DNA from: Roseovarius indicus
GTDB taxonomy: Bacteria > Pseudomonadota > Alphaproteobacteria > Rhodobacterales > Rhodobacteraceae
Direction: 5' to 3'
DNA length: 64,000 bases
NCBI RefSeq assembly: GCF_008728195.1
Contig: NZ_CP031598.1
Location: forward strand, 806,001 to 870,000
Shown: one piece after another, positions 35,798 through 60,342 of the stretch
How the letters are laid out: each line of letters begins with the position of its first letter
How positions within the stretch are numbered: position 1 is the first letter of the stretch
Translations under genes and position numbers: made by a program
The notes under the pieces: generated by a model
Seen by the model: only the letters and a program-made list of their open reading frames with translations
What the model was told of the DNA's origin: nothing
The model's database searches: none

Positions 35798-35821
35798 CTA
35801 GTATACAAGCTGGAATACCAG
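35798..35821. promoter_or_regulatory. GntR-type operator before the first monooxygenase operon
   Basis: Two adjacent imperfect copies, CTAGTATACAAG and CTGGAATACCAG, form GTATAC-n6-GAATAC (35801-35818). The right part, GCTGGAATAC, is identical to that of the site at 44386-44402. Here the half-sites are 12 rather than 11 bases apart. The site lies about 185 bases before ATG 36006, consistent with a promoter just upstream of the operon. Confidence 0.6.
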
Positions 35822-36005
35822 TTGTAGCCTGCCCATGGAATCGCCGCAAAGCCGTGCCTTGACCAGGGCCGGAACAAGACGGCGAACGCGCGAAGACCGA
35901 ACTGGGAGGAAAGACCTTTGCCCCATTGGCTGGCAAGAAATCGTCATGCGCCCGCGTGTCCTTCGATGCGCGGCGCGGGTCGCGGCAACTGCGAGGCGCG
36001 GGACC

Positions 36006-37313
36006 ATGTCTGAGATGCATCTCGTCCACATGTTCTTTCACTCGCCCATCACCCACACGGCCCTGAGCTGGGCCAGCGAGGAAGACGGGCATCTCGCCGG
36101 AATGGGCGATTATGGCTACTGGCAGGATATCGCCCGCACGCTGGAGCGCGGTTGTTTTGACGCCGCGTTTTTTGCCGACACCCCCGCCGCCTCGGACCAG
36201 TACAAGGGCGGGCCGGAGACGCCGCTGAAATACGGTGTTGTCTGGCCGACGCATGACCCGATGCCGCTGGCCGCGGTCATGACCGCCGCCACCAAACACC
36301 TTGGTGTGGGCGTGACCCTGTCGATCACCGGCAACTCGCCCTATCTGGCGTACCGCAGGCTATCGACGCTCGACTATCTCAGCGGCGGGAGGATCGGTTG
36401 GAACGTGGTCACCGGGCACATGCAGGCCGAGCACAAGGCCGTGGGGCAGCAACTCGTGCCGCATGCCGAGCGCTACGATGCCGCCGACGAGTTCATGGAG
36501 GTCTGCTACAAGCTGTGGGACAGTTTCGGCGAGGGCGCGCTGCCGATGGACAAGGCGGCGGGCATCCTTGCCGATCCCGACAAGATCGAAAAGGTACGCC
36601 ACGAGGGCAAGTATTTCCGCTGCGAGGCCGTCTCGCCGACCTTGCCATCGCCGCAGGGCCGGCCTGTCATCTTCCAGGCCGGGTCGTCCGGCCGCGGCAT
36701 GGAATTCGCCGTCAAACATGCCGAGGCGATCTTTGCGATCCAGCCGCATCTCAAGGCGATGACGGCTTTCCGCGAGCGGTTCGACGCCGCGGCTACCAAG
36801 GCCGGCCGCGACCCGATCGGCATCCTTTTCGGCCTGCAATACGTTCTGGGCAGCACCGAGGAGGAAGCCCACCGCCGCCTCGAGGCGCTGCGCGAGCGCG
36901 TTCCGCTCGACGCCGGGCTGAGCCGGCTTTCCGCACCGCTTGGTATCGATTGCAGCACGCTCGACCCGGATCAGCCGTTGGAGGAGGTCCCGACACAGGC
37001 GTCGCAGGGGATGGCGCAGGCGCTGAGCCAGATCGGCAGTGACACCGGCAAGAAGATCACCGTGCGCGAGGCCGCGATCCAGATGGGCCTTTCGGTGGGC
37101 CTGCCGCAGGTCATCGGTTCGCCCGAGCAGGTTGCCGACGAGATCGAACGCCACTGGCGCGAAAGCGGCGCCTTCGGTTTCAATCTCAGCGCGCCGACCA
37201 AGCCGGGCATGATCGAGGAATTCGTCGATCACGTCGTGCCGATCCTGCAGGACAGGGGCCTCGTGCGCCGTGATTACTCGGGGAATACGCTGCGCGACAA
37301 CCTCGGTTTCTGA
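36006..37313 (+). CDS. LLM-class flavin-dependent monooxygenase, NtaA/SnaA/DszA type (copy 1)
   Basis: A 435-residue bacterial-luciferase-family enzyme: HMFFHSPITHTALSW at the N-terminus, RGCFDAAFFADTPA, RRLSTLDYLSGGRIGWNVVTG near residue 118 and VIFQAGSSGRGMEFA near 220 are typical of the nitrilotriacetate/alkanesulfonate/sulfone monooxygenase subgroup. These use FMNH2 from a separate reductase and O2 to cleave C-N or C-S bonds or insert oxygen. Two reductases lie downstream (40233 and 43834). A paralog of identical length is at 58108. An in-frame ATG at 35835 would add 57 unrelated residues. A 31-codon leader frame (TTG 35918, after GGGAGGA) overlaps the start and might couple translation. 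Substrate unknown. Confidence 0.9.
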   Translation: MSEMHLVHMFFHSPITHTALSWASEEDGHLAGMGDYGYWQDIARTLERGCFDAAFFADTPAASDQYKGGPETPLKYGVVWPTHDPMPLAAVMTAATKHLGVGVTLSITGNSPYLAYRRLSTLDYLSGGRIGWNVVTGHMQAEHKAVGQQLVPHAERYDAADEFMEVCYKLWDSFGEGALPMDKAAGILADPDKIEKVRHEGKYFRCEAVSPTLPSPQGRPVIFQAGSSGRGMEFAVKHAEAIFAIQPHLKAMTAFRERFDAAATKAGRDPIGILFGLQYVLGSTEEEAHRRLEALRERVPLDAGLSRLSAPLGIDCSTLDPDQPLEEVPTQASQGMAQALSQIGSDTGKKITVREAAIQMGLSVGLPQVIGSPEQVADEIERHWRESGAFGFNLSAPTKPGMIEEFVDHVVPILQDRGLVRRDYSGNTLRDNLGF

Positions 37314-37318
37314 AACGA

Positions 37319-37335
37319 CCGGGCGCGCCGCCCGG
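37319..37335 (+). other. GC hairpin between monooxygenase and TRAP genes
   Basis: CCGGGCG (37319-37325), loop CGC and CGCCCGG (37329-37335) form a 7-bp stem right after the monooxygenase stop. No U-run follows. It may stabilise the upstream mRNA end or reduce read-through into the transporter genes. Confidence 0.45.
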
Positions 37336-37376
37336 AAAACTCTGATAGCAAACGGCGCAAGACTGGGAGGAATAAA

Positions 37377-38393
37377 ATGAAAACTCTACACATGATGGCC
37401 GCCGGGGCCGCCCTGCTTGTGCAGGCCTCCGGGGCGTATGCCGCGGATTACAACTGGCGGTATGTCGGCGTGATCAATGCCGCGCATGACTATGCCAAGA
37501 TCATGATCGAAGGCTTCGAGCGGGTCGAGGAACGCACCGACGGGGCGCTGCATATCGAATACGTCTCCTATGGCGAAACGCCTTACAAGGCGACGGATTC
37601 GCTGACCCTCATCCGCGATGGCCTTGTCGAGATGACCGAGTGGATTCCGGCCTACAACGCCTCGACCTATCCGCTTCTGGCAGGGCCGGAGCTGCCCTTC
37701 GTGATGGCCGAGCTCGAAGATGCCGCCGGCTTCCAGGAGGCGACGCTCAAGGCATGGAGCACGCCGACGATCAGCGAGTACAAGCAGAGCATCATCGACG
37801 AGCACGGCGCCGTCAGCCTGTCGACCCAGTTCTATGACCCGATCAACATCTGGTTCACCGACGAGGTGACCGGCATCGAGGGCATGAAGGGCAAGAAGGT
37901 GCGCGCGTTTTCACCGGTACAGGCCGATTTCCTGACCTCCGCCGGCGCGTCGCCGGTCAATATCGCAGCGGCCGAGGCCTATACCGGGCTGCAGCGCGGT
38001 GTGATCGACGGGGTGATTACAGGCGCCGGCGCGGTGGTCAGCTTCAAGTGGAACGAGGTGCTGACCTCGGGCTTCACCACCAACCTGACGCTTCTGTCCT
38101 TCGACATGGTCGCGGCCGAGGCCAAACTGAACGAGCTTCCCGATGAGGTGCGCGCGGTACTGGTCGAGGAGATGGGGAATGTCGAGGCCGAGATCCGCGA
38201 GCTCATGCCCAAGGCGTATGAACAGAAGATCGCCGAGCTGAAGGAAGAGGGCCTGACGATCACCAACCCGTCGCCCGAGCTTTACGGGGAATTCCACCGC
38301 ATCGCGGTCGAGGACGTCTTCCCGGCCTGGGCCGAGCAGGCGGGCCCGCAGGCCGAGGAGATTCTCTCCGATTTCGGCATCGAGCTGAACTGA
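37377..38393 (+). CDS. dctP: TRAP transporter periplasmic binding protein (system 2)
   Basis: A 338-residue DctP-family protein with a signal peptide (MKTLHMMAAGAALLVQASGAYA, cleaved before ADYN). Features include GKKVRAFSPVQADFLTSAGASPVNIAAAEAYTGLQ near residue 165, with the carboxylate-binding arginine. GGGAGGA precedes the ATG. Located between the monooxygenase and its reductase, it most likely binds the monooxygenase's substrate or a precursor, presumably an acid. Confidence 0.93.
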   Translation: MKTLHMMAAGAALLVQASGAYAADYNWRYVGVINAAHDYAKIMIEGFERVEERTDGALHIEYVSYGETPYKATDSLTLIRDGLVEMTEWIPAYNASTYPLLAGPELPFVMAELEDAAGFQEATLKAWSTPTISEYKQSIIDEHGAVSLSTQFYDPINIWFTDEVTGIEGMKGKKVRAFSPVQADFLTSAGASPVNIAAAEAYTGLQRGVIDGVITGAGAVVSFKWNEVLTSGFTTNLTLLSFDMVAAEAKLNELPDEVRAVLVEEMGNVEAEIRELMPKAYEQKIAELKEEGLTITNPSPELYGEFHRIAVEDVFPAWAEQAGPQAEEILSDFGIELN

Positions 38394-38412
38394 GCCGGGA
38401 CCGGACGCGCCG

Positions 38413-38910
38413 ATGGAGACCGGAAAGGCCAGATGGCACGAGCGTGCAGGGGTGTTCGCCTCTGCCGCTCTGCTGATCGTACTGTTCGGGCTGCTGTTGA
38501 CCGACGTGATCCTGCGGTGGCTGCATGTCGAGTTCTACTGGGGCAGCGAGGGCGGTGGGCTGCTGATGGCGTGGATGATCTTCCTTGCCCTGCCGATGGT
38601 GATGCGCACGCGCGGGCATATCGCGACCGATTTCGTTGTGGCGCACTTGCCTGACGGGGTGAAAGCCATGCTCCGCATGGCGGGGCACGTGCTGATGATT
38701 GCCTATCTTGCGTGCCTGGTCTGGTACTGCGCCGATCTTGCCCATTCCAACTGGCAAGGCGGCGCACGCTTCCAGGGCATTCTGCGCCTGCCAATGTATC
38801 TTGTTCAAAGCGGGATCCTGGTAGGGCTGCTGCTGATGCTGCTCAGTGAGATCCTGATCCTTTACGAAGAAGCCCGCGCTTTTGGCCGGACAGGAGGCGA
38901 CGCAACATGA
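38413..38910 (+). CDS. dctQ: TRAP transporter small permease (system 2)
   Basis: A 165-residue DctQ subunit with four hydrophobic segments (ASAALLIVLFGLLLTDVIL; LLMAWMIFLALPMVMRTRGHI, which carries the family's RGHI; then AGHVLMIAYLACLVWY; and SGILVGLLLMLLSEILIL). It overlaps the large permease start by 4 bases. Confidence 0.9.
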   Translation: METGKARWHERAGVFASAALLIVLFGLLLTDVILRWLHVEFYWGSEGGGLLMAWMIFLALPMVMRTRGHIATDFVVAHLPDGVKAMLRMAGHVLMIAYLACLVWYCADLAHSNWQGGARFQGILRLPMYLVQSGILVGLLLMLLSEILILYEEARAFGRTGGDAT

Positions 38911-40193: not shown

Positions 40194-40232
40194 GGGCGCT
40201 GACCCCAACCCACCCTTTTCAGGGAGACCCAG

Positions 40233-43833: not shown

Positions 43834-44328
43834 TCAGAGATCCCGGTAGCCGCCCTGATGGGCGAGGGTCACGCCATCCCCGTTGGTCCGAACCCCTTCG
43901 ACACGACCGATCAGAATAACCGCGCCTTCATCCTCGACGGTCTTCTCCAGTCGGCAATCGAATACCGCCGCTGCGGTCTCCAGCGCCGGGGCCCCGGTCG
44001 TGAAACTGCCCCACCTGCCTGCGGCAAACCGCTCCGCCATCTCGGCGCCGCCGCCGAACAGGCGTGCCATCTCGTCCGCTCCCGCGGGCAGAAGGTTGAC
44101 CGCGAAATGCTCCGCTGCCCGGATTACAGGCAGGGCAGAAGTGTTCTTGCCCGCCGAGACCAACACCGTCGGCGGCTCGGCCGAAACATGTGCGAAGGAA
44201 AGCCCGAGAAACCCGACAGGGCCGGCGTCATGGATTGCCGTGATCACTGTGGCCCCAACCGGCCGCGCCCCGACGGTGCGCCAGAAAGCGCCTTGCGTAA
44301 TGACCGCTCCGGTTGCTTCGAACCCCAT
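43834..44328 (-). CDS. Flavin reductase (HpaC-like, single domain)
   Basis: A 164-residue flavin reductase: FWRTVGARPVGATVITA, FLGLSFAHVSAEPPTVLVS and HFAVNLLPAGADEMA are the standard FMN-binding segments. Unlike the protein at 40233 it has no MarR-like tail. It would supply reduced flavin to one or both luciferase-family monooxygenases. It is divergent from the GntR gene at 44540, and a perfect dyad operator lies between them. Confidence 0.9.
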   Translation of the reverse strand: MGFEATGAVITQGAFWRTVGARPVGATVITAIHDAGPVGFLGLSFAHVSAEPPTVLVSAGKNTSALPVIRAAEHFAVNLLPAGADEMARLFGGGAEMAERFAAGRWGSFTTGAPALETAAAVFDCRLEKTVEDEGAVILIGRVEGVRTNGDGVTLAHQGGYRDL

Positions 44329-44385
44329 GTCTCCCCCTCATCTGCGCGCCGTCACCCAGACGCGGTGACCGCCGAAAGCTTACAT

Positions 44386-44402
44386 GTATTCCGCTGGAAT
44401 AC
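44386..44402. promoter_or_regulatory. GntR-type operator between flavin reductase and GntR genes
   Basis: GTATTCC-GCT-GGAATAC is a perfect 7-3-7 inverted repeat in the 211-base divergent gap, 58 bases from the reductase start and 138 from the GntR start. It is the most symmetric member of the motif family also seen at 35801, 45231, 46528 and 52580. Confidence 0.75.
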
Positions 44403-44539
44403 AAGATTTGCGCATGCGGCCCCCGGCCTTCGCTTGGCCCAAATCTCGGGGCGTGATATAGCCTCGGAAACCCGATCCCAACCAATTGGACACCCGAGTG
44501 GCGCAAAGCTTCGCTTCCCCTGCCGAGGACGGCAGCGAC

Positions 44540-45169
44540 ATGGATAAACAATCGCGAGACACCTACTCGATCATCCGCGAAAGGATCCTGACGCTCGACC
44601 TGCCGCCTGGCTCTCTTCTGTCGGAAAACTCGCTAGGTGCATCGCTCGGCCTGAGCCGAACGCCGATCCGCGAGGCGATCAAGCGGCTCGAGCGGGAAGA
44701 CCTTGTCGCCATTCTCCCGCGTCGCGGCATCGTCGTGACCGAGGTTGATCTGAAAAGCCAGCTCGACCTATTGGAGTTCCGCCGTGGCATCGAGATCCGC
44801 CTGATCCGCCGCGGAGCAGAACGGGCCAGCCCCGCTCAACGCAGCCGGATCGGTGAAATCGCCGCGCTGGCCGAAGCCTGTGCCGCCTCGGGGGACCTGT
44901 CGCAGTACATCGCGCATGACACCGAGTTCGATGCCATCATTGAACAGGCCGCAGACAACCGCTTTCTCACGAATGCGATGAAGCCGGTCCACGCCCTTGT
45001 GCGCCGGTTCTGGCATACCCAGCGTGGCCGATCGGCGCTGCCGGAAGCACTTGACCAGCATGCCCGCGTTATCCGGGCCGCCGCAGATGGTGCGCCCGAG
45101 CGGGTCGAGGCGGAACTCTCGGCGCTCTACGATCAGAATGAACAGTATATTCTCGGTCTGATGACCTGA
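44540..45169 (+). CDS. GntR family regulator, FCD subfamily (module A)
   Basis: A 209-residue FCD-type GntR protein. The winged helix (about residues 5-70: ERILTLDLPPGSLLSENSLG, then GLSRTPIREAIKRLERE) is nearly identical in its recognition part to the regulator at 51830. The effector domain follows, with HDTEFDAIIEQAADNRFL carrying the metal-ligand histidine and aspartate positions. ATG 44540 is preceded by GAGGA; a TTG at 44486 is a weaker alternative. It probably recognises GTATWCCAGYRGAATAC sites around it, including one in its own promoter. Confidence 0.92.
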   Translation: MDKQSRDTYSIIRERILTLDLPPGSLLSENSLGASLGLSRTPIREAIKRLEREDLVAILPRRGIVVTEVDLKSQLDLLEFRRGIEIRLIRRGAERASPAQRSRIGEIAALAEACAASGDLSQYIAHDTEFDAIIEQAADNRFLTNAMKPVHALVRRFWHTQRGRSALPEALDQHARVIRAAADGAPERVEAELSALYDQNEQYILGLMT

Positions 45170-45230
45170 GCCGTGACGGAGAAGGGTGTACTGCACCGGG
45201 CCCCTTCTTGACTGGTGACCGATCAATCTA

Positions 45231-45247
45231 GTATACCAGTAGAATAC
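45231..45247. promoter_or_regulatory. GntR-type operator before ribB
   Basis: GTATACCAGTAGAATAC lies 54 bases before ribB. It matches the reverse complement of the site at 52580-52596 at 15 of 17 positions and that of 44386-44402 at 14 of 17. I found no FMN riboswitch in this 131-base gap. A 7-bp AGAAGGG/CCCTTCT hairpin upstream may end the GntR transcript. Confidence 0.72.
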
Positions 45248-45300
45248 ATGATTTTGGGCGACACGTTTCCTCGCCCCGGAACGACAGGAAAGGCAGGCCC

Positions 45301-45984
45301 ATGAACATGCTGCGGACGATCCCCACCGCATCCTACCCGAACGCCCGTGAGGCGGAAAACAACGTCATCGTTGGCCCCTCCGAGATCATCGCCGAAGCCG
45401 CCGCGGGCCGGATATTCATCCTCGTCGATGACGAAGACCGTGAAAACGAGGGGGACCTTGTCATTCCCGCCGACGCGGCCGACTCCGCGGCCATCACCTT
45501 CATGGCGCGCCAGGGCTGCGGCCTGATCTGTCTGGCCATGTCGGGCGAGATGGTCGACAGGCTCGACCTTCCGCCGATGCCCCGAAAGGGAAGTTCGCGC
45601 CACGACACCGCCTTCACCGTTTCGATCGAGGCGCGTGACGGCATCACAACCGGCATCTCCGCGAGCGACCGGGCGCGCACTGTCGCTGCCGCGATTGCGC
45701 CCGATGCCACCTCCGAAGACATCGTTTCACCCGGCCACGTCTTTCCCCTGCGTGCGCACGATGGTGGGGTGAGGGCGCGCGCCGGACATACCGAAGCTTC
45801 GGTCGAGGTGGCGCGCCTTGCGGGTCGCCGTCCGGCCAGCGTGATCTGCGAAATCATGAACCCCGACGGCACCATGGCGCGGCTTGATGACCTCGTGGCA
45901 TTTGCCCGCACTCATGACTTGAAGATCGGTCGGATCTGCGACCTCATCACCTATCTCGACGCACCCGCCGTTCGGTCCGCCTGA
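45301..45984 (+). CDS. ribB: 3,4-dihydroxy-2-butanone 4-phosphate synthase
   Basis: A 227-residue stand-alone RibB that converts ribulose 5-phosphate to formate and the four-carbon precursor of riboflavin. VDDEDRENEGDLVIPAD (residues 40-56) binds metal and substrate, and GHTEASVEVARLAG near 161 supplies further catalytic residues; SPGHVFPLRA is intact. There is no fused RibA domain. The gene stands outside any riboflavin operon, among flavin-dependent oxidoreductases, and carries a GntR-type operator. It probably raises flavin supply when the monooxygenase system is induced. An ATG 6 bases downstream is also possible as start. Confidence 0.95.
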   Translation: MNMLRTIPTASYPNAREAENNVIVGPSEIIAEAAAGRIFILVDDEDRENEGDLVIPADAADSAAITFMARQGCGLICLAMSGEMVDRLDLPPMPRKGSSRHDTAFTVSIEARDGITTGISASDRARTVAAAIAPDATSEDIVSPGHVFPLRAHDGGVRARAGHTEASVEVARLAGRRPASVICEIMNPDGTMARLDDLVAFARTHDLKIGRICDLITYLDAPAVRSA

Positions 45985-46490: not shown

Positions 46491-48050
<1,560 letters not shown>

Positions 48051-48052
48051 CC

Positions 48053-49066
48053 ATGGCGCGCATGTCGATGATCGAGGCCATCCGCAACGCCCACGAGGTG
48101 GCGATGGAGGCCGACGAGAATGTCGTCGTGATGGGCGAGGACGTCGGCTATTTCGGCGGCGTCTTCCGCTGCACCGCCGGGCTGCAGAAGCGCTTCGGGG
48201 TCGAGCGCTGCTTCGACACCCCGATCAGCGAGCTCGGCATCGTCGGCACCGCCATCGGCATGGCGGCCTACGGGCTCAAGCCCGTGGTCGAGATTCAGTT
48301 CGCCGATTACATGTACCCCGCCTATGACCAGCTCGTCTCGGAAGCCGCCCGCCTGCGCTATCGCTCGGCCGGCGAGTTTACCTGCCCGATGGTGGTGCGC
48401 ATGCCCACGGGCGGCGGCATCTTCGGTGCCCAGACCCACAGCCAGAGCCCCGAGGCCCTCTTCACCCATGTCGCCGGGCTGAAAACCGTCGTGCCGTCGA
48501 CCCCGGCCGACGCCAAGGGCCTGCTGCTCGCCGCCATCAACGACCCCGACCCGGTGATCTTCCTCGAACCCAAGCGCCTGTACAACGGGCCGTTCGACGG
48601 CCATTTCGACCGCCCCTCGCGCTCGTGGAGCAAGGACGAGATGGGCGAGGTCGAGCCGGGCAATTACATCGTCCCGCTCGGGCAGGCGAAAACCGTCCGC
48701 GACGGCAGTGCCGCGACGCTGGTGACCTATGGCACGATGGTCCATGTCGCGCTGGCCGCGGTCGAGGAAAGCGGCGCCGATATCGAGGTGATCGACCTGC
48801 GCACCCTGCTGCCGCTCGACCTCGACACCGTCGCCGCCTCGGTGAACCGCACCGGCCGCTGCATTGTCTTGCACGAGGCGACACTCACCTCGGGCTACGG
48901 TGCCGAGCTTGCCGCGCTGATCCAGTCGGAATGCTTCTACGCGCTCGAGGCGCCGATCCTGCGCGTGGCCGGGTGGGACACGCCCTATCCGCATGCGCAG
49001 GAATGGGATTACTTCCCGGGCCCCGAACGGGTGAAACGTGCCATTGCCACGGTGCTGGAGGGGTAG
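48053..49066 (+). CDS. bkdA2: Branched-chain 2-oxoacid dehydrogenase E1 beta subunit
   Basis: A 337-residue E1 beta chain: MSMIEAIRNAHEVAMEAD, VVMGEDVGYFGGVFRCTAGL (with the catalytic glutamate contacting TPP), RMPTGGGIFGAQTHSQSPEA and the C-terminal GWDTPYPHAQEWDYFP, all typical of the branched-chain form. It pairs with E1 alpha in an alpha2-beta2 tetramer; the gene follows 2 bases after the alpha gene. Confidence 0.94.
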   Translation: MARMSMIEAIRNAHEVAMEADENVVVMGEDVGYFGGVFRCTAGLQKRFGVERCFDTPISELGIVGTAIGMAAYGLKPVVEIQFADYMYPAYDQLVSEAARLRYRSAGEFTCPMVVRMPTGGGIFGAQTHSQSPEALFTHVAGLKTVVPSTPADAKGLLLAAINDPDPVIFLEPKRLYNGPFDGHFDRPSRSWSKDEMGEVEPGNYIVPLGQAKTVRDGSAATLVTYGTMVHVALAAVEESGADIEVIDLRTLLPLDLDTVAASVNRTGRCIVLHEATLTSGYGAELAALIQSECFYALEAPILRVAGWDTPYPHAQEWDYFPGPERVKRAIATVLEG

Positions 49067-49069
49067 GCC

Positions 49070-50365
49070 ATGACCGAACAGAGCTTCAAACTCCCCGATA
49101 TCGGCGAGGGCATCACCGAGGCCGAGCTGAGCGAATGGCTGGTCAAGGTCGGTGACGAGGTCCGAGAGGACGACCCGATCTGCGAGGTGACGACCGACAA
49201 GGCCACAGTGGAGATCCCTGCGGCGGCGACCGGACGGGTGACATGGGTCGGCGGCGAGGCGGGTGACGTTCTGGCCGTGGGCAGCGAACTGATCCGCATC
49301 GAAACGGATGGTGACGTCGCGCCGTCCGAGGAAAGCGAAGACCCCGCGCCGGAACCGGCCCCGAAGCCGGAATCGGAGCCGGAGCCCGAAACGCCCGCCA
49401 AGCCGGCGAAACAGCCCGAACCGCCCGCCAAGCCCGCCCGCCGCGCGCAGGCGCCCGCCTCGGCCACCATGGCCCGCAACGCTGCCGGCCGTCCGCTCGC
49501 CGCCCCCTCCGTCCGCGGCCGCGCGCTCGAGATGGGCATCGACCTGCGTCAGTTGCGCGGCACCGGCCCGGCCGGCCGTATCCTGCATGAAGACCTCGAC
49601 GCCTACGCTGAAAGCGGCGGCGCGGCCGCGCCCGGCTCCGGCCTGCGCCGCCGCGACACCACCGAGGAGGTCCGGATCACCGGCGTCCGCCGCAAGATCT
49701 CGGAACGGATGTCGCTGGCCAAGGCACGCATCCCGCATTTCTCGATCATCGAGGAAGTCGAGGTCGATGCGCTGGAAGACCTGCGCGCCAGCCTCAACGC
49801 CCGTTTCGCCGACAAACGCGGCAAGCTCACCCTGCTGCCCTTCGTGATCCGCGCCCTGTCCGAGGCCGTGCTCGACCACCCTGAAATCAACGCCCATTTC
49901 GATGACGAGGCCAGCGTCGTCACCCGCCACGCCGCCCTGCATTGCGGCATCGCCACCCAGACCGACACCGGCCTGATGGTCCCCGTGCTGCAACACGCCG
50001 AGGCGATGGACCTGTGGGAGGCCGCCCGCGACGTCCGCCGCCTGTCCGACTCCGCGCGCGAGCGCCGGATCTCGCCGGAAAACCTTTCCGGGTCCACGAT
50101 TACGATCACCTCGCTGGGCCCGCTCGGTGCGCTGGCGACGACACCGATCATCAACCACCCCGAGGTGGCCATCGTCGGCATCAACAAGATCGCCGTCCGC
50201 CCCGTCTGGGACGGCCACGCCTTCCAGCCCCGGCGCGTCATGAACCTCTCCTGCAGCTTCGATCACCGCGTGGTCGACGGGTGGGTGGCCGCGGAATTCG
50301 TGGCCAAGCTGAAGGCGCTTCTGGAAACCCCGGCAATGCTATGGATGGAGTGGCGCGATGACTGA
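49070..50365 (+). CDS. bkdB: Branched-chain 2-oxoacid dehydrogenase E2 (dihydrolipoyl acyltransferase)
   Basis: A 431-residue E2 core protein. The single lipoyl domain (1-78) carries K44 in EVTTDKATVEIP, the lipoylation site. A flexible linker of repeated P/E/K/A (about 83-130) leads to the peripheral subunit-binding domain (about 142-180: RGRALEMGIDLRQLRGTGPAGRI). The catalytic domain (about 198-431) ends with the active-site FDHRVVDG near residue 398. It transfers the acyl group to CoA, giving isovaleryl-, isobutyryl- or 2-methylbutyryl-CoA. The E3 gene overlaps its end by 8 bases. Confidence 0.94.
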   Translation: MTEQSFKLPDIGEGITEAELSEWLVKVGDEVREDDPICEVTTDKATVEIPAAATGRVTWVGGEAGDVLAVGSELIRIETDGDVAPSEESEDPAPEPAPKPESEPEPETPAKPAKQPEPPAKPARRAQAPASATMARNAAGRPLAAPSVRGRALEMGIDLRQLRGTGPAGRILHEDLDAYAESGGAAAPGSGLRRRDTTEEVRITGVRRKISERMSLAKARIPHFSIIEEVEVDALEDLRASLNARFADKRGKLTLLPFVIRALSEAVLDHPEINAHFDDEASVVTRHAALHCGIATQTDTGLMVPVLQHAEAMDLWEAARDVRRLSDSARERRISPENLSGSTITITSLGPLGALATTPIINHPEVAIVGINKIAVRPVWDGHAFQPRRVMNLSCSFDHRVVDGWVAAEFVAKLKALLETPAMLWMEWRDD

Positions 50366-51737
50366 GATGACCTGTGACCTGCTCGTCATCGGCGGCGGTC
50401 CCGGCGGCTATGTTTGTGCTTCGCGCGCGGCACGGCAGGGGCTCGATACCGTGCTGGTGGAAGGCCGCCGCGTCGGCGGCACCTGCCTCAACGTGGGCTG
50501 CATCCCGTCGAAGGCGCTGATCCACGCGGCCGACCTTTACCACACCGCCACGCTTCAGGCGGGCGAGGGGCTTTGTGGCGTCACCGTCGCGACGCCGCAC
50601 CTCGACTACGGGCAGACGCTGGATTGGTCCGGCTCCGTCGTCGACAAGCTGTGCTCGGGCGTGACCGGCCTTCTTGGCAACAGCGGCGTGAAGACCCTGA
50701 CCGGCTGGGCGCATTTCCGCGATGGCAAGACCGTCGAGGTCGACAGCGAGACCGGCCCCGTCACGATCCGCGCCGCAAAGGTGGTGATCGCCACCGGGTC
50801 GCAGCCGGTAGAGCTGCCGGGCCTGCCCTTCGGGCCGCATACGCTCGATTCCACCGCCGCGCTCGCCCTGGCCGACCTGCCCGCGCGGCTGGCGGTCGTC
50901 GGTGCCGGTTACATCGGGCTCGAACTGGGCACCGCCTTCGCCAAGCTGGGCTGCAAGGTGACCATCGTCGAGGCCGCCGACCGCATCCTGCCGCAATATG
51001 ACGATAAGCTGACCCGCCCCGTCCGGCGCCGCCTCGAAGAGCTCGGGATTACTTTGAAGCTCGAAACCAGGGTGAAAGGCTGGGCGCAGGAGGGGCAGGA
51101 ACTGACTCTTTCCGGCCCCGAGGGCGAAGAAACCCTTGCCGCCGACAAGGCCCTCGTCACCGTGGGCCGCGCGCCGAACCTCGACGGGCTGAGCATCGAC
51201 GAACTCCGCCTGCGACACGACGGCCCCTTCCTCGAAATCGACGACCAGTGCCGCACCTCGATGCGCGGGGTCTACGCCATTGGCGACGTCACGCCGGGGC
51301 CGATGCTGGCGCACCGCGCGATGGCGCAGGGTGAGATGGTGGCCGACCTGCTTGCCGGGCACACGAAACGCTGGGACAAGACCTGTATTCCCGCGATCTG
51401 TTTCACCGACCCCGAAATCGTGACCGCCGGCCTGCTTCCGTCCGAGGCGCCGGAGGCCGAAACGGGCACCTTTCAGTTCCGCGCCAACGGCCGCGCCCTC
51501 ACGCTTGGCGATACCGAGGGGTTCATCCGCATACTTGCCCGCCCGTCCGATCATGTCGTCCTTGGCATTCAGGCCACGGGGCCGGGCGTGTCGGAACTGG
51601 CCGCCGCCTTCGCCATCGCGATCGAATCCGGTCTGAGGGCGGAGGATATCGCGGCCACGATCCACGCCCATCCGACCCTTGGCGAAGCCCTGCAGGAGGC
51701 CGCGCTTGGGCTCACCTCCATGGCCAATCACGGCTGA
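50358..51737 (+). CDS. lpdV: Dihydrolipoyl dehydrogenase (E3) of the branched-chain complex
   Basis: A 459-residue FAD disulfide oxidoreductase that reoxidises E2-bound dihydrolipoamide with NAD. The FAD motif VIGGGPGGYVCAS (10-22), the redox-active pair C43/C48 in GGTCLNVGCIPS, the NAD motif VVGAGYIGLELG near 182 and the C-terminal IHAHPTLGEALQEA with the catalytic histidine are all intact. Length equals the valine-specific LpdV of Pseudomonas. It closes the bkd operon. Confidence 0.94.
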   Translation: MTEMTCDLLVIGGGPGGYVCASRAARQGLDTVLVEGRRVGGTCLNVGCIPSKALIHAADLYHTATLQAGEGLCGVTVATPHLDYGQTLDWSGSVVDKLCSGVTGLLGNSGVKTLTGWAHFRDGKTVEVDSETGPVTIRAAKVVIATGSQPVELPGLPFGPHTLDSTAALALADLPARLAVVGAGYIGLELGTAFAKLGCKVTIVEAADRILPQYDDKLTRPVRRRLEELGITLKLETRVKGWAQEGQELTLSGPEGEETLAADKALVTVGRAPNLDGLSIDELRLRHDGPFLEIDDQCRTSMRGVYAIGDVTPGPMLAHRAMAQGEMVADLLAGHTKRWDKTCIPAICFTDPEIVTAGLLPSEAPEAETGTFQFRANGRALTLGDTEGFIRILARPSDHVVLGIQATGPGVSELAAAFAIAIESGLRAEDIAATIHAHPTLGEALQEAALGLTSMANHG

Positions 51738-51784: not shown

Positions 51785-51796
51785 CCAGTGGTATAC
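51785..51796. promoter_or_regulatory. GntR-type half operator before the module B regulator
   Basis: CCAGTGGTATAC carries a clean TGGTATAC half-site 34 bases before the GntR start at 51830, but the partner half is degenerate. It fits weak autoregulation by the downstream gene. Confidence 0.35.
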
Positions 51797-51829
51797 AGGC
51801 AGCCGGAACAAGGCGAAGGCAGAAGGCCA

Positions 51830-52498
51830 ATGGCGCGACAAATCCCAAAAACACAGGATGCCGGCGAGCTCGACCCGCTGGCGGCCACAGCCTATACGAC
51901 GATCCTTGACCGTATCGTACGCCTCGACCTGCCGCCGGGAAGCCTGATCTCGGAAAATTCTCTCGGCCGGGAAATGGGCCTCAGTCGCACCCCCGTGCGA
52001 GAAGCGCTGAAGCGGCTCGAACGGGAATACCTCGTCTCGATCATGCCCCGCCGCGGGATCATCGTGACCGAGGTCGACCTGCGCAGCCAGATCCAGCTTC
52101 TGGAAATGCGCCGCGGCATCGAGATGCGCCTGCTCCTTCGGGGAACCGAGCGCGCAAGCGACGGCCAGCGGGCCGAGATGAAGCGGCTGGCCTCCGAGAT
52201 GGAAGCGGCGGCAGAGGCAAACGACCTCAAAAGCTATGTCCGCCACGACGCCGAGTTCGATGCCATCGTCGAAGAGGCCTGTGGCAACCGCTTCCTGACC
52301 CAGGCGATGTGGCCGGTGCATGCGCTGATCCGGCGTTACTGGCATACGCAGGTCGGCACCGCCGGGCTGCGCGAGGCGCTTGACCTGCACGTGCGCGTGG
52401 TCCGTGCCGCCGCAGACGGGGATACCGATGCCGTGCGCCAGCGGCTCACCGAGCTCTGCGACCGCACGGAAACCTACATTCTCGACCAGATGCGATAA
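51830..52498 (+). CDS. GntR family regulator, FCD subfamily (module B)
   Basis: A 222-residue paralog of the regulator at 44540. The DNA-binding part (LDLPPGSLISENSLG, GLSRTPVREALKRLERE, PRRGIIVTEVDLRSQ) differs from it at only a few positions, so the two probably read the same operator. The ligand domain (HDAEFDAIVEEACGNRFL, HALIRRYWHTQ) keeps the FCD metal residues but is more divergent, suggesting a different or related effector. GAAGG precedes ATG 51830. It heads module B and is followed by the aldolase gene with an operator in between. Confidence 0.92.
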   Translation: MARQIPKTQDAGELDPLAATAYTTILDRIVRLDLPPGSLISENSLGREMGLSRTPVREALKRLEREYLVSIMPRRGIIVTEVDLRSQIQLLEMRRGIEMRLLLRGTERASDGQRAEMKRLASEMEAAAEANDLKSYVRHDAEFDAIVEEACGNRFLTQAMWPVHALIRRYWHTQVGTAGLREALDLHVRVVRAAADGDTDAVRQRLTELCDRTETYILDQMR

Positions 52499-52579
52499 CC
52501 TGCGCGCTCCGTGGCACCGGAAAGGCCCGCGCTTGCGTAACCGCTGCGTTGCACGCTTGACCTGCGTTTTCGCAAACAT

Positions 52580-52596
52580 GTATTCTACTGAAATAC
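52580..52596. promoter_or_regulatory. GntR-type operator before the RraA-family gene
   Basis: GTATTCTACTGAAATAC: its reverse complement matches the ribB site at 15 of 17 positions. It lies 67 bases before ATG 52663, in the 164-base gap after the GntR gene, and is the likely control site for module B transcription. Confidence 0.72.
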
Positions 52597-52662
52597 AAGA
52601 CGCGAAGCGCATTGGCGGCCACGCTGTTGACGACCCGGCTGCCGACACAGGGAGGAGTGAAC

Positions 52663-53394
52663 ATGAATGAGATGAAACCGGTCGCCTATACCCGGATTCC
52701 AAGGATCGATAAGTCGCTGATCGAACGGGCCAGCCAGAATTCGGTGGCTGACCTGCACGAAGGGCTTGGCGCCATCGCCGGGCGGCGTTGCCTGCTGTCC
52801 ACCGCCATGCGCCCCGTCTGGCCCGGCGCCGGCACATGTGGCCAAGCCATCACCTGCTACAACTACCCCGGCGACAACCTGCTTCTGCACATCGCCGCCA
52901 AGCTGGCCGAGCCGGGCGATGTCATCGTCGCCACCAATGGCGGTAGTGCCCAAGGCGCGCTCTGGGGTGACATGATCACCTATTATGCACAACGGAAGGG
53001 CATCGCCGGCGCCGTTGTCGATGGCGCGGTTCGCGATACCGGCCGCGTGCGGGAGATGGGGTTTCCTGTCTTCTCGACGGCCATCTCCGTGTCGCACCCC
53101 GAAAAGCGTGGGCCGGGCTCGGCCAACGTGCCGGTCGTGGTCGCCGGCGTGACTGTGAACCCGGGCGATCTGATCGTCGCCGATGACGATGGCGTTCTCG
53201 CGATTCCGCCCGAACTGGTCGAAACCGCCGTGGCAAATGCCGAGGCTCGTGCGGCGAAGGAATCGGGTTTCCGCGACAAGCTCGACGAGGGTGCCACGAT
53301 GTACGATCTGCTCGGTCTCGAGCGCGATGTCGCGGCCTGCGGGCTCACCGAAATCGAAGGGACCTGGAGAGGCGCTGTACCCCCCGACGCCTGA
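52663..53394 (+). CDS. RraA-family aldolase/decarboxylase (HMG or CHA aldolase-like)
   Basis: A 243-residue RraA/LigK-fold protein. GAVVDGAVRDTGRVREMGFPVF (about residues 113-134) holds the G-x-x-x-D-G-x-x-R-D motif that binds metal and pyruvate in 4-hydroxy-4-methyl-2-oxoglutarate and 4-carboxy-4-hydroxy-2-oxoadipate aldolases; GDVIVATNGG near 86 is the second hallmark. These enzymes split 4-hydroxy-2-oxo acids into pyruvate and an oxoacid and can decarboxylate oxaloacetate. RraA proteins that inhibit RNase E are shorter (about 160 residues) and lack the aldolase role. GGAGG lies 7 bases before ATG 52663. It is probably the final carbon-cleaving step of module B. Confidence 0.87.
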   Translation: MNEMKPVAYTRIPRIDKSLIERASQNSVADLHEGLGAIAGRRCLLSTAMRPVWPGAGTCGQAITCYNYPGDNLLLHIAAKLAEPGDVIVATNGGSAQGALWGDMITYYAQRKGIAGAVVDGAVRDTGRVREMGFPVFSTAISVSHPEKRGPGSANVPVVVAGVTVNPGDLIVADDDGVLAIPPELVETAVANAEARAAKESGFRDKLDEGATMYDLLGLERDVAACGLTEIEGTWRGAVPPDA

Positions 53395-53724
53395 TCCTCT
53401 ATCCTGAGACGGCCGCAGGCCCGCGCTGGGCCTTGCGCCTCCGTGTTCCAAGGTCCAGAGCTTTGATTTAAAGCTGTTTTCCTGGAGGCGATGCCGTGCG
53501 GCCTGTGGTCTTTTCCATCAGAAAAACCGATCAAAATCATCACATCAATGATCATTAAAATGATCGGTTGGTATGCTAGAAAACCTTTCAGCCAAAGTCA
53601 TCTTTGGCCGCGGCAGGGAGGAATGTCGCACGAATTTCTGCACCAGGCCGAAGACAGCCGGGCAGGGCAACGGAGGAGCGGATCGCGCCGAACGCGGCGG
53701 TCCGGTTGACCAAAGAGGAACGGC
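53395..53724. promoter_or_regulatory. Intergenic region with clustered dyads before the TRAP operon (system 3)
   Basis: This 330-base gap holds no convincing gene. A weak hairpin AGCTTT-GATTT-AAAGCT (53459-53475) followed by GTTTT may end the aldolase transcript. GATCATT-AA-AATGATC (53550-53565) is a perfect inverted repeat, and CCGATCA (53527-53533) with TGATCGG (53561-53567) forms an overlapping larger dyad. GGTATGCTAG (53570-53579) resembles half of the GntR motif. A GGGAGGA site at 53616-53622 directly abuts an ATG (53623) opening a 28-codon frame, too close for normal initiation. The cluster looks like an operator/promoter for the TRAP operon. Confidence 0.5.
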
Positions 53725-56858: not shown

Positions 56859-56877
56859 AAGGATGGCGACACGACCG

Positions 56878-58077
56878 ATGCGAATCGACAAGGCGATCAA
56901 CATTCACGATGTCCGCGACTGCGCGCGCCGCTACCTGCCGCGCATCGCCTTTGACTTCATCGATGGCGGCGTCGACGGCGAGGCGGCACTCGCGCGGAAC
57001 CGCGCGGCCTTCGACCGCTGGAAACTTCTGCCGCGCTACCTTGTCGATGTGTCGGACCGCAGCCAGACCGTCACCCTGTTCGGCCACGAGTATTCCAGCC
57101 CCTTCGGCGTCTCGCCCATGGGCATCGCCGGCTTCTTCCGGCCGGGTGCCGACCTGATGCTGGCCCGCGCCGCGGCGAAGTTCGACCTGCCCTACCTCAT
57201 GTCCAGCGCAAGCTGCGACTCGATCGAGGCGGCGATGGATGCCGCGCCGAAAACCACCTGGTTCCAGATCTACGGCACCCGCAACCCCGAGATCACCGCC
57301 GATCTCATCCGCCGCGCCCGTGCGCTCGATGTCCGCGTGCTGATCCTGACGATCGACACGCCGGTCATGGCCAAGCGGGAACGCAACCTCCGCAATGGGT
57401 TCACCCGCCCGATGAAGATGACCCCGGGCGTGATCCTGCAGGGCCTCAGCCGCCCGGCCTGGACGATGCGCTACCTGCAAAGCAGCGGTATCCCGATGAT
57501 GGAGAACTGGCGCCCCTACGCGGGCGAAAACGCCAATGCCGGCACGGTGGCCGATCTCTACGGCACCGAAACGCCCGCCCCCGAACAGACCTGGGAGGTG
57601 CTGAAGTCGGTCCGCAAGGCCTGGCCCGGCCCGCTGGTCGTGAAGGGCGTGATGCACCCCGACGATGCCCGCCGCTGCCGCGACCTCGGTGCCGACGGCC
57701 TGATCGTGTCGAACCACGGCGGCCGACAGCTCGATTCCGCACCCGGCTCCCTCGACATGCTGCCGCTCGTGGCCGACGCGGTGGGCGACGGGATGGAACT
57801 GCTGATCGACAGTGGCTTTCGCCGCGGCTCCGACATCGCCAAGGCGCTCTGCCTCGGCGCCAAGGCCACGCTCTTCGGCCGCCCGGCCATGTTCGGCGTG
57901 GCGGCAGGAGGGCAGGCGGGGGCCGAGAAGGTCTTCGACATCTACCGGCAGGAGCTCAGCCTCGTCATGGGCATGATGGGCTGGACAGACCTCTCCGCCG
58001 CCGGCCGCGAAAGCCTCTTCGACCTCGCCAACCCGCCGGGCTTCACAACTCCTGCGCGCTCGCGTGCCGCGGAATGA
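56878..58077 (+). CDS. FMN-dependent 2-hydroxy-acid dehydrogenase (LldD/mandelate dehydrogenase type)
   Basis: A 399-residue TIM-barrel flavoenzyme. FGVSPMGIAGFFRPGAD near residue 78 and LMSSASCDSIE near 104 bind FMN, and VSNHGGRQLDSAPGSLDML near 275 contains the catalytic His and Arg; LIDSGFRRGSDIAKAL follows. The family oxidises (S)-2-hydroxy acids such as lactate, glycolate or mandelate to 2-oxo acids. ATG 56878 is preferred over ATG 56863 because AAAGGA lies at the right distance. Set between a TRAP system and the second monooxygenase, it may oxidise a hydroxy acid formed in module B, and it adds to the flavin load of the region. Confidence 0.92.
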   Translation: MRIDKAINIHDVRDCARRYLPRIAFDFIDGGVDGEAALARNRAAFDRWKLLPRYLVDVSDRSQTVTLFGHEYSSPFGVSPMGIAGFFRPGADLMLARAAAKFDLPYLMSSASCDSIEAAMDAAPKTTWFQIYGTRNPEITADLIRRARALDVRVLILTIDTPVMAKRERNLRNGFTRPMKMTPGVILQGLSRPAWTMRYLQSSGIPMMENWRPYAGENANAGTVADLYGTETPAPEQTWEVLKSVRKAWPGPLVVKGVMHPDDARRCRDLGADGLIVSNHGGRQLDSAPGSLDMLPLVADAVGDGMELLIDSGFRRGSDIAKALCLGAKATLFGRPAMFGVAAGGQAGAEKVFDIYRQELSLVMGMMGWTDLSAAGRESLFDLANPPGFTTPARSRAAE

Positions 58078-58107
58078 TCGTCATTAACTGGAAAGGTGAC
58101 CAACCCC

Positions 58108-59415
58108 ATGAGTGAGCAAATGCACCTGATCGGCTTCTACATGCACAGCCCGATCAACCACAGCGCCATGAGCTGGACCGATCCGGAAGACGGCCGGCTC
58201 GACGGGATGGCATCGTTCGATCACTGGAAGAAGCTCGCCCGCACCCTCGAACGCGGCTGTTTCGACGCGGCCTTCTTCGCCGACACCCCCGGCGGCTACG
58301 ACTGGTACCGCGACAGCCTCGACGACTATGTCCGCTACGGCGTCTGCTGGCCCAGCCACGACCCGATGGCGCTTATGGGTGTCATGCTGGCCGAAACCGA
58401 GCACCTGGGCCTCGCCCTCACGCTCTCCACCTCCGGCAGCCATCCCTATACCACGGTTCGCCGCCTCTCGACGCTCGACTACATGAGCGGCGGGCGTGTC
58501 GGTTGGAACATCGTCTCGGGCCACCTCCGGGCCGAACACCGCGCGCTGGGCGCCGAGCAGCTTCAGCATGACGAGCGCTATGACCACGCCGACGAATACA
58601 TGGATGTCTGCTATGCGCTCTGGAACGGCATCAAGCCCGGCGCGATCCTGGCCGACCGCGAAAGGGGCCTGTATGCCGACCCCGAAAAGATCGACGTGAT
58701 CGATTTCCAGGGTGACTATTTCCGCTGTCGTGGCGTGCCCCCCGTTCTGCCCTCGGCACAGGGCCGCCCGGTGCTGTTCCAGGCGGGATCATCGGGCCGC
58801 GGTCAGAAATTCGCCCTGAAGCATGCCGACGTGGTCTTCGCCATCCAGCCGCAGGCCGCGGCCATGACGAAGTTCGTCAAGAAACTGGGCGAGACCGCCG
58901 AAACCGAGGGCCGCAAGGATACGCCCAAGGTCACCTTCGGCCTTCAATGCATCCTCGGCGGAACCGAGGAAGAGGCGAAAGCCCATCAGAAAGAGATAGC
59001 CGACCGCATCCCCATCGACGCTGCCCTCAACCGCATGTCCGGCACGATGGGCGTCGATTTCAGCCGGCTGGAACTCGATTCCCGCCTCGCCGACAACACC
59101 ACCGAGGCCTCGCAGGGCATGCTGATGGCGCTCGCCAACATGGCCGGCGACGGCAACGCCACGGTGCGCGATGCCGCCCGCCTCTTCGGAGCCTCCACCG
59201 GCATGCCGCAGGTCGTGGGCACACCCGAACAGGTCGCCGACGAGCTCGAACATCTTTGGCGCAGCAGCGGCTGCCACGGGTTCAACCTCACCCCCACGAC
59301 CAGCAACAGCAGCGTCGAGGAGTTTGTCGACGAGGTCGTGCCGCTCCTGCAGAAAAAGGGCATCTACCGGACGGAATACACCGGCAAGACCTTCGCCGAG
59401 AACGTGATGGCCTGA
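58108..59415 (+). CDS. LLM-class flavin-dependent monooxygenase, NtaA/SnaA/DszA type (copy 2)
   Basis: A 435-residue paralog of the enzyme at 36006, equal in length and roughly half identical by eye (shared RTLERGCFDAAFFADTP, RRLSTLDYxSGGRxGWN, FQAGSSGRG). It uses reduced FMN and oxygen. No reductase gene lies in module B, so it probably depends on the reductases at 40233 or 43834. Start ATG 58108 follows GGAAAGGTGA by 8 bases; GTG 58096 is the alternative. The next gene, a lactonase-like hydrolase, starts 6 bases later. Substrate unknown, but the differing middle region (residues 60-75) suggests it is not the same as copy 1. Confidence 0.9.
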   Translation: MSEQMHLIGFYMHSPINHSAMSWTDPEDGRLDGMASFDHWKKLARTLERGCFDAAFFADTPGGYDWYRDSLDDYVRYGVCWPSHDPMALMGVMLAETEHLGLALTLSTSGSHPYTTVRRLSTLDYMSGGRVGWNIVSGHLRAEHRALGAEQLQHDERYDHADEYMDVCYALWNGIKPGAILADRERGLYADPEKIDVIDFQGDYFRCRGVPPVLPSAQGRPVLFQAGSSGRGQKFALKHADVVFAIQPQAAAMTKFVKKLGETAETEGRKDTPKVTFGLQCILGGTEEEAKAHQKEIADRIPIDAALNRMSGTMGVDFSRLELDSRLADNTTEASQGMLMALANMAGDGNATVRDAARLFGASTGMPQVVGTPEQVADELEHLWRSSGCHGFNLTPTTSNSSVEEFVDEVVPLLQKKGIYRTEYTGKTFAENVMA

Positions 59416-59421
59416 TCGCCC

Positions 59422-60264
59422 ATGGCCGACACTCGCGCAACCCGCCCGAATATCGCCGTGCCCCCCGGCGCCTGCGACACCCACATGCACTTCTACGACG
59501 ATAGCTACCCGGCCTCGCCCAAGGCATGGCTCTTCCCGCCGAATTTCCTGCCGGAAGACTACCGCGCCATTCAGGAAAAGGTGGGGCTCGCGCGCATGGT
59601 CGTGGTCCAGCCCGTCACCTACGGGTTCGACAACCGCTGCATCCTCGACGCCATCGCCCGGATCGGCGACAGCGCCCGGGCCGTCGTCACCGTGCCCACC
59701 GACATATCCGATGCAGACCTCGACACGCTCTGGCATCAGAACGCGCGCGGCCTGCGCTATCACCAGATGGCCGGCAGCATGACCGAATGGTCCGACTTGC
59801 CGCTCATGGCCGATCGCATCAAGGGCACCGGCTGGCATCTTCAGGTTCAGCTCGACGGGTTGGAACTGCCGCAATACGAACCCCTCATCGCCGATCTGCC
59901 CTGCACGGTGGTGATCGATCACATGGGCCGCTACTCCGACTGCATCGCCCCCGACCACCCGGCGCATCAGGCGCTCTTGCGCCTCGCCGCGCAACCGAAT
60001 GTCTGGGTCAAGCTCTCGGGTGCCTACCACATCTCGAAGTCCGGCAAGCCCGACTATGCAGACGTCGCCCCACTCGCCCGCTCGCTCATCGAGCAGGGCA
60101 CCGACCGGCTGCTCTGGGGCTCCGACTGGCCGCACCCGACGGAGACCGAGGACAGCATGCCCGACGATGGCCGCCTCCTCGACCTTCTGGCCGACTGGGG
60201 CCTCACCGAGGCCCAGCGCGAGGCGGTGCTGGTCACCAACCCGGCCCGGCTCTACGGTTTCTGA
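59422..60264 (+). CDS. Amidohydrolase-2 family hydrolase, LigI/lactonase-like (module B)
   Basis: A 280-residue TIM-barrel hydrolase with ACDTHMHFYD (HxH, about H22 and H24), VVIDHMGR near 163 and the catalytic aspartate in LLWGSDWPHPT near 230. It is close in size and motif to 2-pyrone-4,6-dicarboxylate lactonase (LigI) and D-galactarolactone isomerase. Ring opening of a lactone made downstream of the monooxygenase, followed by cleavage by the RraA-type aldolase, would mirror the protocatechuate 4,5-cleavage route (inference). It is the last gene of the module B operon. Confidence 0.85.
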   Translation: MADTRATRPNIAVPPGACDTHMHFYDDSYPASPKAWLFPPNFLPEDYRAIQEKVGLARMVVVQPVTYGFDNRCILDAIARIGDSARAVVTVPTDISDADLDTLWHQNARGLRYHQMAGSMTEWSDLPLMADRIKGTGWHLQVQLDGLELPQYEPLIADLPCTVVIDHMGRYSDCIAPDHPAHQALLRLAAQPNVWVKLSGAYHISKSGKPDYADVAPLARSLIEQGTDRLLWGSDWPHPTETEDSMPDDGRLLDLLADWGLTEAQREAVLVTNPARLYGF

Positions 60265-60333
60265 GCCACTGCAGTGCGCCAACCATCAGGTCGATCGATG
60301 CCTGACGCAGCTTTTTCTTTTGGCAAACCGATG

Positions 60334-60342
60334 ATCTGGTAT
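60334..60342. promoter_or_regulatory. GntR-type half operator before the LysR gene
   Basis: CTGGTATAC (continuing TAG) equals one half of the regional GntR motif; the other half is absent at the usual spacing. It lies 41 bases before the LysR start. Confidence 0.3.

Follow-up and report, generated by a model that had tools for sequence, protein, structure and literature searches.

Four described systems offer a background for a set of short palindromic sequences that recurs ahead of most operons in a 25-kb cluster for an uncharacterised flavin-monooxygenase pathway in the marine bacterium Roseovarius indicus. These sequences lie in a 64-kb stretch (the window; positions 806001-870000 of the 6.17-Mb genome) that also encodes two FCD-domain regulators of the GntR family, here called GntR1 and GntR2. 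In Agrobacterium fabrum, dimers of Atu1419, an FCD regulator of the VanR group, bind one 10-bp ATGTATACAT block, with Arg45 on G3; the block overlaps -10 boxes, and the protein represses its own gene and catabolic genes (PMC7797058). FadR-type sites have the form GT-N2/3-AC and, as a trend, weaker extra boxes 7-12 nt away (PMC4494728). In Escherichia coli, three FCD dimers of NanR occupy a (GGTATA)3 repeat operator in approximately half-turn steps and cooperate via a 32-residue N-terminal extension (PMC8012715). Finally, two Corynebacterium glutamicum paralogs, also named GntR1 and GntR2, have one binding site and one regulon (PMC2230225).

The Roseovarius cluster resembles each of these systems in part. 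As with Atu1419, FCD GntR proteins with equivalents of Glu34, Arg45, Thr46 and Arg49 are found together with a GTATAC-core palindrome over -10 boxes; however, one promoter region of the Atu1419 system has two ATGTATACAT blocks separated by 190 bp, whereas pairs of CTGGWATACWAG blocks stand 11-12 bp apart here. The sites are similar to those of the FadR subfamily in having a GT-N2-AC palindrome and a weaker box 7-12 nt from its centre, but the promoter of the monooxygenase gene LLM1 has two abutting blocks that score about equally. Repeated GTATA-type blocks at a close, regular spacing (an 11- or 12-bp period at sites O1, O2, O3 and O6; Table 1) recall the NanR operator, although the offset is half a turn in NanR and about one turn here, and GntR1 is without a long N-terminal extension. 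The C. glutamicum proteins likewise form a pair of paralogs, but they are 78% identical, compared with 60% here, and their regulon and sites are unrelated to those of Roseovarius.

We consider it probable (roughly 0.7) that these sites serve as operators in a catabolic regulon that is local and regulates itself. GntR1 and GntR2 would each bind an approximately 12-bp block, CTGGWATACWAG, in one major groove; paired blocks one turn apart would probably hold two dimers or a tetramer side by side, and the GntR2 and LysR promoters would offer a single block each. A block lying over a -10 element, as at ribB and the RraA-like aldolase gene, would lead to repression, including self-repression of the GntR genes. 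Binding of a pathway metabolite to the FCD domain would then release both proteins from the DNA and switch on the monooxygenase, flavin reductase, ribB, aldolase, LysR and both GntR genes. A regulon of this kind is already known; the tandem one-turn spacing and the use of two paralogs are the parts worth experiment. Literature searches in one library, on the regulon or on tandem FCD operators, returned nothing about this cluster.

Specificity and anatomy of the motif

The sequence-only reading of the window had described a recurring 17-bp motif. With up to 3 mismatches, this 17-mer occurs at four places in the window (7 rows, owing to its palindromy), compared with a mean of 0.14 matches in 100 shuffles, none of which reached 7. 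It is present at 44386 (minus) and 45231 (plus) with no mismatch, at 52580 (minus) with 1 and at 46528 (plus) with 3, whereas the site claimed at 35801 has no 17-mer and a 6-base spacer between its arms. Pairwise agreement of 14-15 of 17 positions, as had been stated, holds for 44386/45231 and 45231/52580 (counted by eye). Across the whole genome, scanned with IUPAC patterns and not with a matrix, 22 rows were found; 7 are in the cluster, among them all rows with 0-2 mismatches. The other 15 all have 3 mismatches and, since a reversed control pattern gave 17 rows, they can be regarded as background. A reading frame of at least 80 aa spans 12 of these 15 and none spans the remaining 3 (L005, L015 and L018), which is a weak argument because GC-rich DNA has many reading frames. 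Exact arms with a 5-base spacer (GTATWC-N5-GWATAC) occur at two places in the genome, both in the cluster, and exact arms with a 6-base spacer at one, the site at 35801.

Shuffling of the intergenic DNA between 32.1 and 63.3 kb points in the same direction. Four intergenic GTATAC were observed, compared with a mean of 0.09 (0 of 2000 shuffles reached 4), and three block pairs with 5- or 6-base spacers, compared with a mean of 0.0015 (none reached 3); in this test, the LLM1 gap was entered 20 bases too long. Exact intergenic GWATWC pairs up to 40 bp apart (30.8-63.3 kb) are found at a distance of 11 (two) or 12 (one) and at no other, and the whole window contains one additional pair, at a distance of 23. 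It is practically certain that the motif is real.

The 17-mer, which had been taken for the site of a single dimer, is best read as two adjacent GT-N2-AC-type blocks. Each of its GTATWC arms is a GT-N2-AC-like block (G1 to C6 and G12 to C17), and the unit is probably a near-palindrome of about 12 bp, CTGGWATACWAG, with the core GT-N2-AC. The best 12-bp blocks are CTGGTATACTAG (ribB and LysR), CTGGAATACAAG (flavin reductase), CTGAAATACAAG (RraA), GTGGTATACAGG (GntR2), and CTAGTATACAAG and CTGGAATACCAG (LLM1). A weight matrix from seven sites gave leave-one-out scores of 10.8 to 18.4. In the window, its six best matches are cluster sites, followed by one inside LldD (57087, 14.6) and by GntR2 (14.5), a ranking that is partly circular because the matrix was built from the sites themselves; the two LLM1 blocks score 18.0 and 17.1. 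Four promoters carry two blocks one helical turn apart, with a period of 11 bp and an overlap of 1 bp at O2, O3 and O6, and a period of 12 bp with abutting blocks at O1.

The sequences at 51789 and 60334 had been called half-sites, but both belong to a complete 12-bp unit, STGGTATACWRG, so that O5 and O7 (ahead of GntR2 and LysR) are complete single-block candidate operators. This pattern, derived from the cluster sites, has four exact matches in the genome, namely at ribB, O5 and O7 in the cluster and inside one reading frame elsewhere (gltX-like by eye). The second Roseovarius genome introduced below also has four, three in the cluster and one at the corresponding place of the gltX-like frame, and Roseovarius sp. 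TE539 has two, one of them in the cluster.

An independent example surfaced in the genome-wide search for paired arms. At G000:C1:418583-418610 (L098 3084-3111) of the R. indicus genome, three blocks follow each other at an 11-bp period (GAATAC, GTATAC and GTATCC, the third with one mismatch), and at G732:C7:51169-51196 (L099) of the second Roseovarius the series is GAATAC, GTATAC and GTATTC. The array precedes by 16 bp the probable start of another FCD GntR gene, one whose product also has the SRTP residues; a dihydrodipicolinate-synthase-family gene comes next. Such a series of three equal 11-bp steps agrees with one dimer per block and not with a single 17-bp site for one dimer.

Candidate binders and related clusters

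GntR1 and GntR2 diverge in the FCD domain, and both match Pfam GntR and FCD above the gathering scores. They have in common the recognition helix SRTP[IV]REA and the wing PRRGI; S52, R53, T54, P55 and R57 of the helix as well as PRRGI are invariant in 22 aligned sequences (GntR1, GntR2 and 20 of 53 homologs), and the SRTPxR of GntR1 aligns with Arg45, Thr46 and Arg49 of Atu1419 (6z74; residue numbers counted from the alignment). Operators of the GT-N2/3-AC type near own and target genes have their counterpart in the 12-bp blocks of the promoters of this cluster, where the GntR1 promoter has two blocks and that of GntR2 has one. Judging by these residues and by the placement of the sites, it is very likely that GntR1, GntR2 or both bind the motif, as had been proposed.

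In contrast to Atu1419, the usual FCD histidines are partly missing. Compared with the FCD GntR next to the three-block array, FD replaces FH in GntR1 and GntR2, and there is no His in the last helix; we take these positions to be those of metal-binding histidines, which are common but not universal. Since two usual histidines are missing, the inducer may not be a metal-bound carboxylate. Ahead of the helix-turn-helix domain match, GntR1 has five residues and GntR2 seventeen.

A third FCD GntR in the window (GntR3) had been overlooked. It shares approximately 31% identity with GntR1, and its residue in the Arg45 position is Gln. Between its gene and the divergent frame at 62182 lies a perfect palindrome, ACTAATATATTAGT (62137-62150), which is unchanged in the second Roseovarius and is a probable GntR3 operator, with A/T in place of the G/C of the blocks. 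Gln in place of Arg together with an A/T palindrome would fit an Arg-to-G contact and speaks against binding of GntR3 to the GT-N2-AC blocks; GntR3 is thus a ready specificity contrast.

The nearest relatives of the cluster are in Roseovarius sp. TE539 and in the Roseovarius metagenome-assembled genome CCMP836_Bin15, both of the same genus group. Three stretches were compared, of which L031 and L035 lie on one contig of the second Roseovarius (genome G452, the same as G732 by contig number, length and coordinates) and L032 is that of TE539 (genome G453, by the same criteria the same as G566). Gene order from the GMC oxidoreductase to GntR3 is the same in L031 as in the window. In L031, the flavin reductase/GntR1, ribB and RraA promoters all retain their sites, and GntR2 and LysR their single blocks; L035 preserves the full LLM1 double block in a stretch free of differences, with gaps in the flanking sequence on both sides. 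In the second Roseovarius, exact arms with the 5-base spacer occur at four places (three in the cluster) and with the 6-base spacer at two (one in the cluster); TE539 has no exact-arm place with either spacer.

TE539 has a reduced cluster (L032 7073-11558) consisting of the amidohydrolase, flavin reductase, GntR2, RraA and part of the GMC gene; GntR1, ribB and bkd are absent at this locus. Its sites at the flavin reductase and RraA promoters (O2 and O6) have 2 mismatches each, and the GntR2 block (O5) is identical. Searches of TE539 for a second GntR (GntR1; E <= 1e-45) and for a LysR homolog (E <= 1e-30) found neither. The retention of sites and GntR2 without matches to GntR1 or LysR suggests that the sites need no partner other than GntR2.

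Among 84 genomes of the genus, 17-mers with no mismatch occur only in R. indicus and the second Roseovarius (2 rows each), which are also the two genomes with both GntR genes; the idea of a local regulon joining both modules of the cluster agrees with this distribution. A GntR2 query was matched in 3 of the 84 genus genomes, in 1 of 394 family genomes at E <= 1e-50 (that of R. indicus), in 3 of 390 order genomes at E <= 1e-38 (R. indicus, TE539 and one at 41% identity) and in 2 of 385 class genomes at E <= 1e-45 (R. indicus and one at 41%). Homologs named Salipiger (66%) and Acuticoccus (64%) were found, and identity stays below 60% in all 1628 matching plasmid records.

Repression and competing explanations

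Where a promoter is recognisable, one block covers its -10 element (the stronger block at ribB and the weaker at RraA), which suggests that the proteins act as repressors. At ribB, the first block of O3 overlaps a candidate -10 (TTGACT at 45208-45213, 18 nt, TATACC at 45232-45237; by eye). At RraA, the second block of O6 has one mismatch, and the first, weaker block overlaps the -10 TATTCT of TTGACC-18-TATTCT (52557-52586), whose TTGACC is kept in L031 and L032. This was the one match of a promoter scan and alone is no evidence, because the shuffle mean was 0.8. On the basis of these overlaps, repression at the sites is likely; that each block holds one dimer has somewhat better than even chances.

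A single GntR dimer might instead span the full 17-bp inverted repeat with one monomer per GTATWC arm, and single arms would then be weak half-sites. The 17-mer is indeed an inverted repeat, three sites fit it with 0 or 1 mismatch, and arms 11 bp apart have the usual spacing for many helix-turn-helix dimers. Nonetheless, we consider such an arrangement unlikely. In FCD/FadR-type sites, GT and AC are 2-3 nt apart, which fits each block and not the 17-mer; O1 has a 6-base spacer, and the one relative with this site shows no change in it; O5 and O7, although single blocks, are conserved too and almost confined to the cluster; and three equally spaced blocks precede another FCD GntR gene. The paralogs might also have separate roles, one repressing most sites and the other responding to a different signal at the same blocks or controlling only its own gene. 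Identity of only 60%, divergence in the FCD domain and the different site types of the GntR1 and GntR2 promoters (two blocks vs. one) are in line with this possibility, which we consider less likely than not: the recognition helix and wing are the same, and for the C. glutamicum paralogs, which share a site, the transcriptome changed in the double deletion and not in the single ones (PMC2230225).

It is also conceivable, but improbable, that the sites are read by LysR, BkdR/Lrp, GntR3 or an FCD GntR encoded elsewhere and that GntR1 and GntR2 have other targets. A first search of the genome gave 46 loose GntR candidates, one of them an FCD GntR with the same SRTP helix, and GntR3 and LysR are located in the cluster itself. 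However, TE539 retains sites but has no LysR homolog at E <= 1e-30, GntR3 differs at the Arg45 position and has its own palindrome, sites precede both the GntR1 and GntR2 genes, and the exact 17-mers are absent from the 82 other genus genomes. Finally, the blocks contain TATAC or TATTC and overlap -10 candidates (RraA, and ribB by eye), as conserved core-promoter -10 boxes would. That all of them are such boxes and not operators is very improbable considering the conserved, near-palindromic CT...AG flanks of most blocks, the double blocks and the near absence of the patterns from the rest of the genome.

Several observations weigh against operators of GntR1 and GntR2, the reading that we prefer. 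Only two related loci were compared, one of them close. In TE539, only a reduced locus is left, with a GMC frame that matches choline-dehydrogenase profiles from position 152-159 onwards and not before, and the sites there might be relics. Beyond exact matches, the 17-mer is unspecific across genomes: of the 81 genus genomes that lack GntR2, 52 match it with up to 2 mismatches, five of these with 1 (G713, G004, G035, G731 and G008). As the three-block array indicates, a similar core may also serve another regulator of the genome. The bkd site is weak, with 3 mismatches at the level of the genome background, and the matrix scan of upstream gaps gave no strong block ahead of the second TRAP system (TRAP2) or LldD. 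Moreover, O5 and O7 could be conserved -10 elements (the O5 block, with TATACA, could also serve as one while being an operator), and two dimers 11 bp apart on one face of the DNA might clash.

Genes and secondary sites of the cluster

The left part of the cluster consists of the LLM1 monooxygenase, a TRAP transporter, flavin reductase, GMC oxidoreductase and amidohydrolase genes; the middle, of the divergent flavin reductase/GntR1 pair, ribB, BkdR and the bkd operon. GntR2, the RraA-like aldolase, TRAP2, an LldD-like oxidase and LLM2 begin the right part, which ends with an amidohydrolase, LysR and GntR3. This last amidohydrolase resembles 4-sulfomuconolactone hydrolase and 2-pyrone-4,6-dicarboxylate hydrolase. 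For LLM1, the most likely start is the position in Table 1 (MSEMHLVHM), approximately 185 bp past its site.

Table 1. Genes, candidate operators and weaker sites in the window
Feature	Position	Strand	Remark
LLM1, NtaA/DmoA-family FMN-dependent monooxygenase	36006..37313	+	putative target
Flavin reductase, RutF/HsaB-like	43834..44328	-	putative target
GntR1, FCD-domain GntR regulator	44540..45169	+	209 aa
ribB, 3,4-dihydroxy-2-butanone-4-phosphate synthase	45301..45984	+	putative target; TIGR00506 above cutoff
BkdR/Lrp	45990	-	
bkd-type 2-oxoacid dehydrogenase operon (E1a, E1b, E2, Lpd)	46818..51737	+	doubtful target
GntR2, FCD-domain GntR regulator	51830..52498	+	222 aa
RraA-like 4-carboxy-4-hydroxy-2-oxoadipate-type aldolase	52663..53394	+	putative target; NF006731 above cutoff
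LysR-type regulator	60383..61339	+	putative target
GntR3, third FCD GntR	61354-62073	-	
O1, ahead of LLM1 operon	35798..35821		abutting blocks CTAGTATACAAG and CTGGAATACCAG, period 12; GTATAC-N6-GAATAC
O2, flavin reductase/GntR1 intergenic	44383..44405		blocks CATGTATTCCGC and CTGGAATACAAG, 1-bp overlap, period 11
O3, ahead of ribB	45228..45250		blocks CTAGTATACCAG and GTAGAATACATG
O4, BkdR/bkd intergenic	46525..46544		weak candidate; block TTTGTACACCAG (GT-N2-AC), 3 mismatches to 17-mer
O5, ahead of GntR2	51788..51799	+	single block GTGGTATACAGG
O6, ahead of RraA-like aldolase	52577..52599		blocks CATGTATTCTAC and CTGAAATACAAG
O7, ahead of LysR gene	60336..60347	+	single block CTGGTATACTAG, identical to ribB block
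Block ahead of second TRAP operon	53568..53579	+	weak candidate; TTGGTATGCTAG, scores below O1-O3 and O5-O7

As a means of flavin supply, it would make sense to couple ribB and a flavin reductase to FMN-dependent monooxygenases. A comparable enzyme set is found on a Bradyrhizobium plasmid (L093 7837-16850), which carries a related monooxygenase (60% to LLM2), TRAP, amidohydrolase and flavin reductase genes as well as a 'dimethylmenaquinone methyltransferase' (an RraA-type name); the adjoining regulator is IclR, not GntR. The enzyme module therefore looks coherent, and GntR control appears to be a local feature. The result is a testable operator map for a pathway whose regulator occurs in 3 of 84 genus genomes; it predicts which operons, including ribB, answer one signal, and the system is suited to testing the packing of FCD GntR dimers when their blocks are one helical turn apart. 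A far-reaching and rather unlikely extension would be a code of marine Roseovarius of one block per helical turn for FCD GntR proteins, in which one to three CTGGWATACWAG-type blocks per promoter, at 11-12 bp, and two paralogs (possibly as mixed tetramers, with GntR1 on one block and GntR2 on the other) would grade repression by block number across a pathway that includes a riboflavin-synthesis gene.

Whether bkd belongs to the regulon is doubtful, the odds being slightly below even. The site that had been noted at 46528 was found, but it is a weak one. In L031, GTACACCA is kept and a palindrome with perfect arms lies slightly upstream. This palindrome recurs exactly in one genome that does not carry the cluster and with one difference in three more; BkdR was considered as its reader and rejected, as the four recurrences fall within a frame that looks gatA-like by eye, where they read as the peptide IGIPKEY. 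None of nine stretches from non-carrier genomes matched bkd or another gene of the window. The searched block types were not found in the BkdR/bkd gaps of three plasmid loci from other Rhodobacterales (two aligned, one inspected), which have diverged too far to decide on the bkd site. Ahead of E1-alpha, a small frame of 74 aa (46597-46821) has no Pfam match, is 95% identical in L031 and has approximately 35% identity to sequences in two other Rhodobacterales.

The weak block ahead of TRAP2 is identical in L031; the promoter around it is long and conserved and contains an inverted repeat that may belong to another regulator. The repeat, CCGATCA...TGATCGG at 53527-53567, lies in a highly conserved stretch and is a possible site for a different regulator, LysR being one example. 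Directly upstream of the cluster (32105-35685), an IclR regulator, a LeuC/LeuD-like (DmdB-family) hydratase pair and a PrpB-like lyase are encoded; these genes may represent a branch of the dialkylmaleate/dialkylmalate type.

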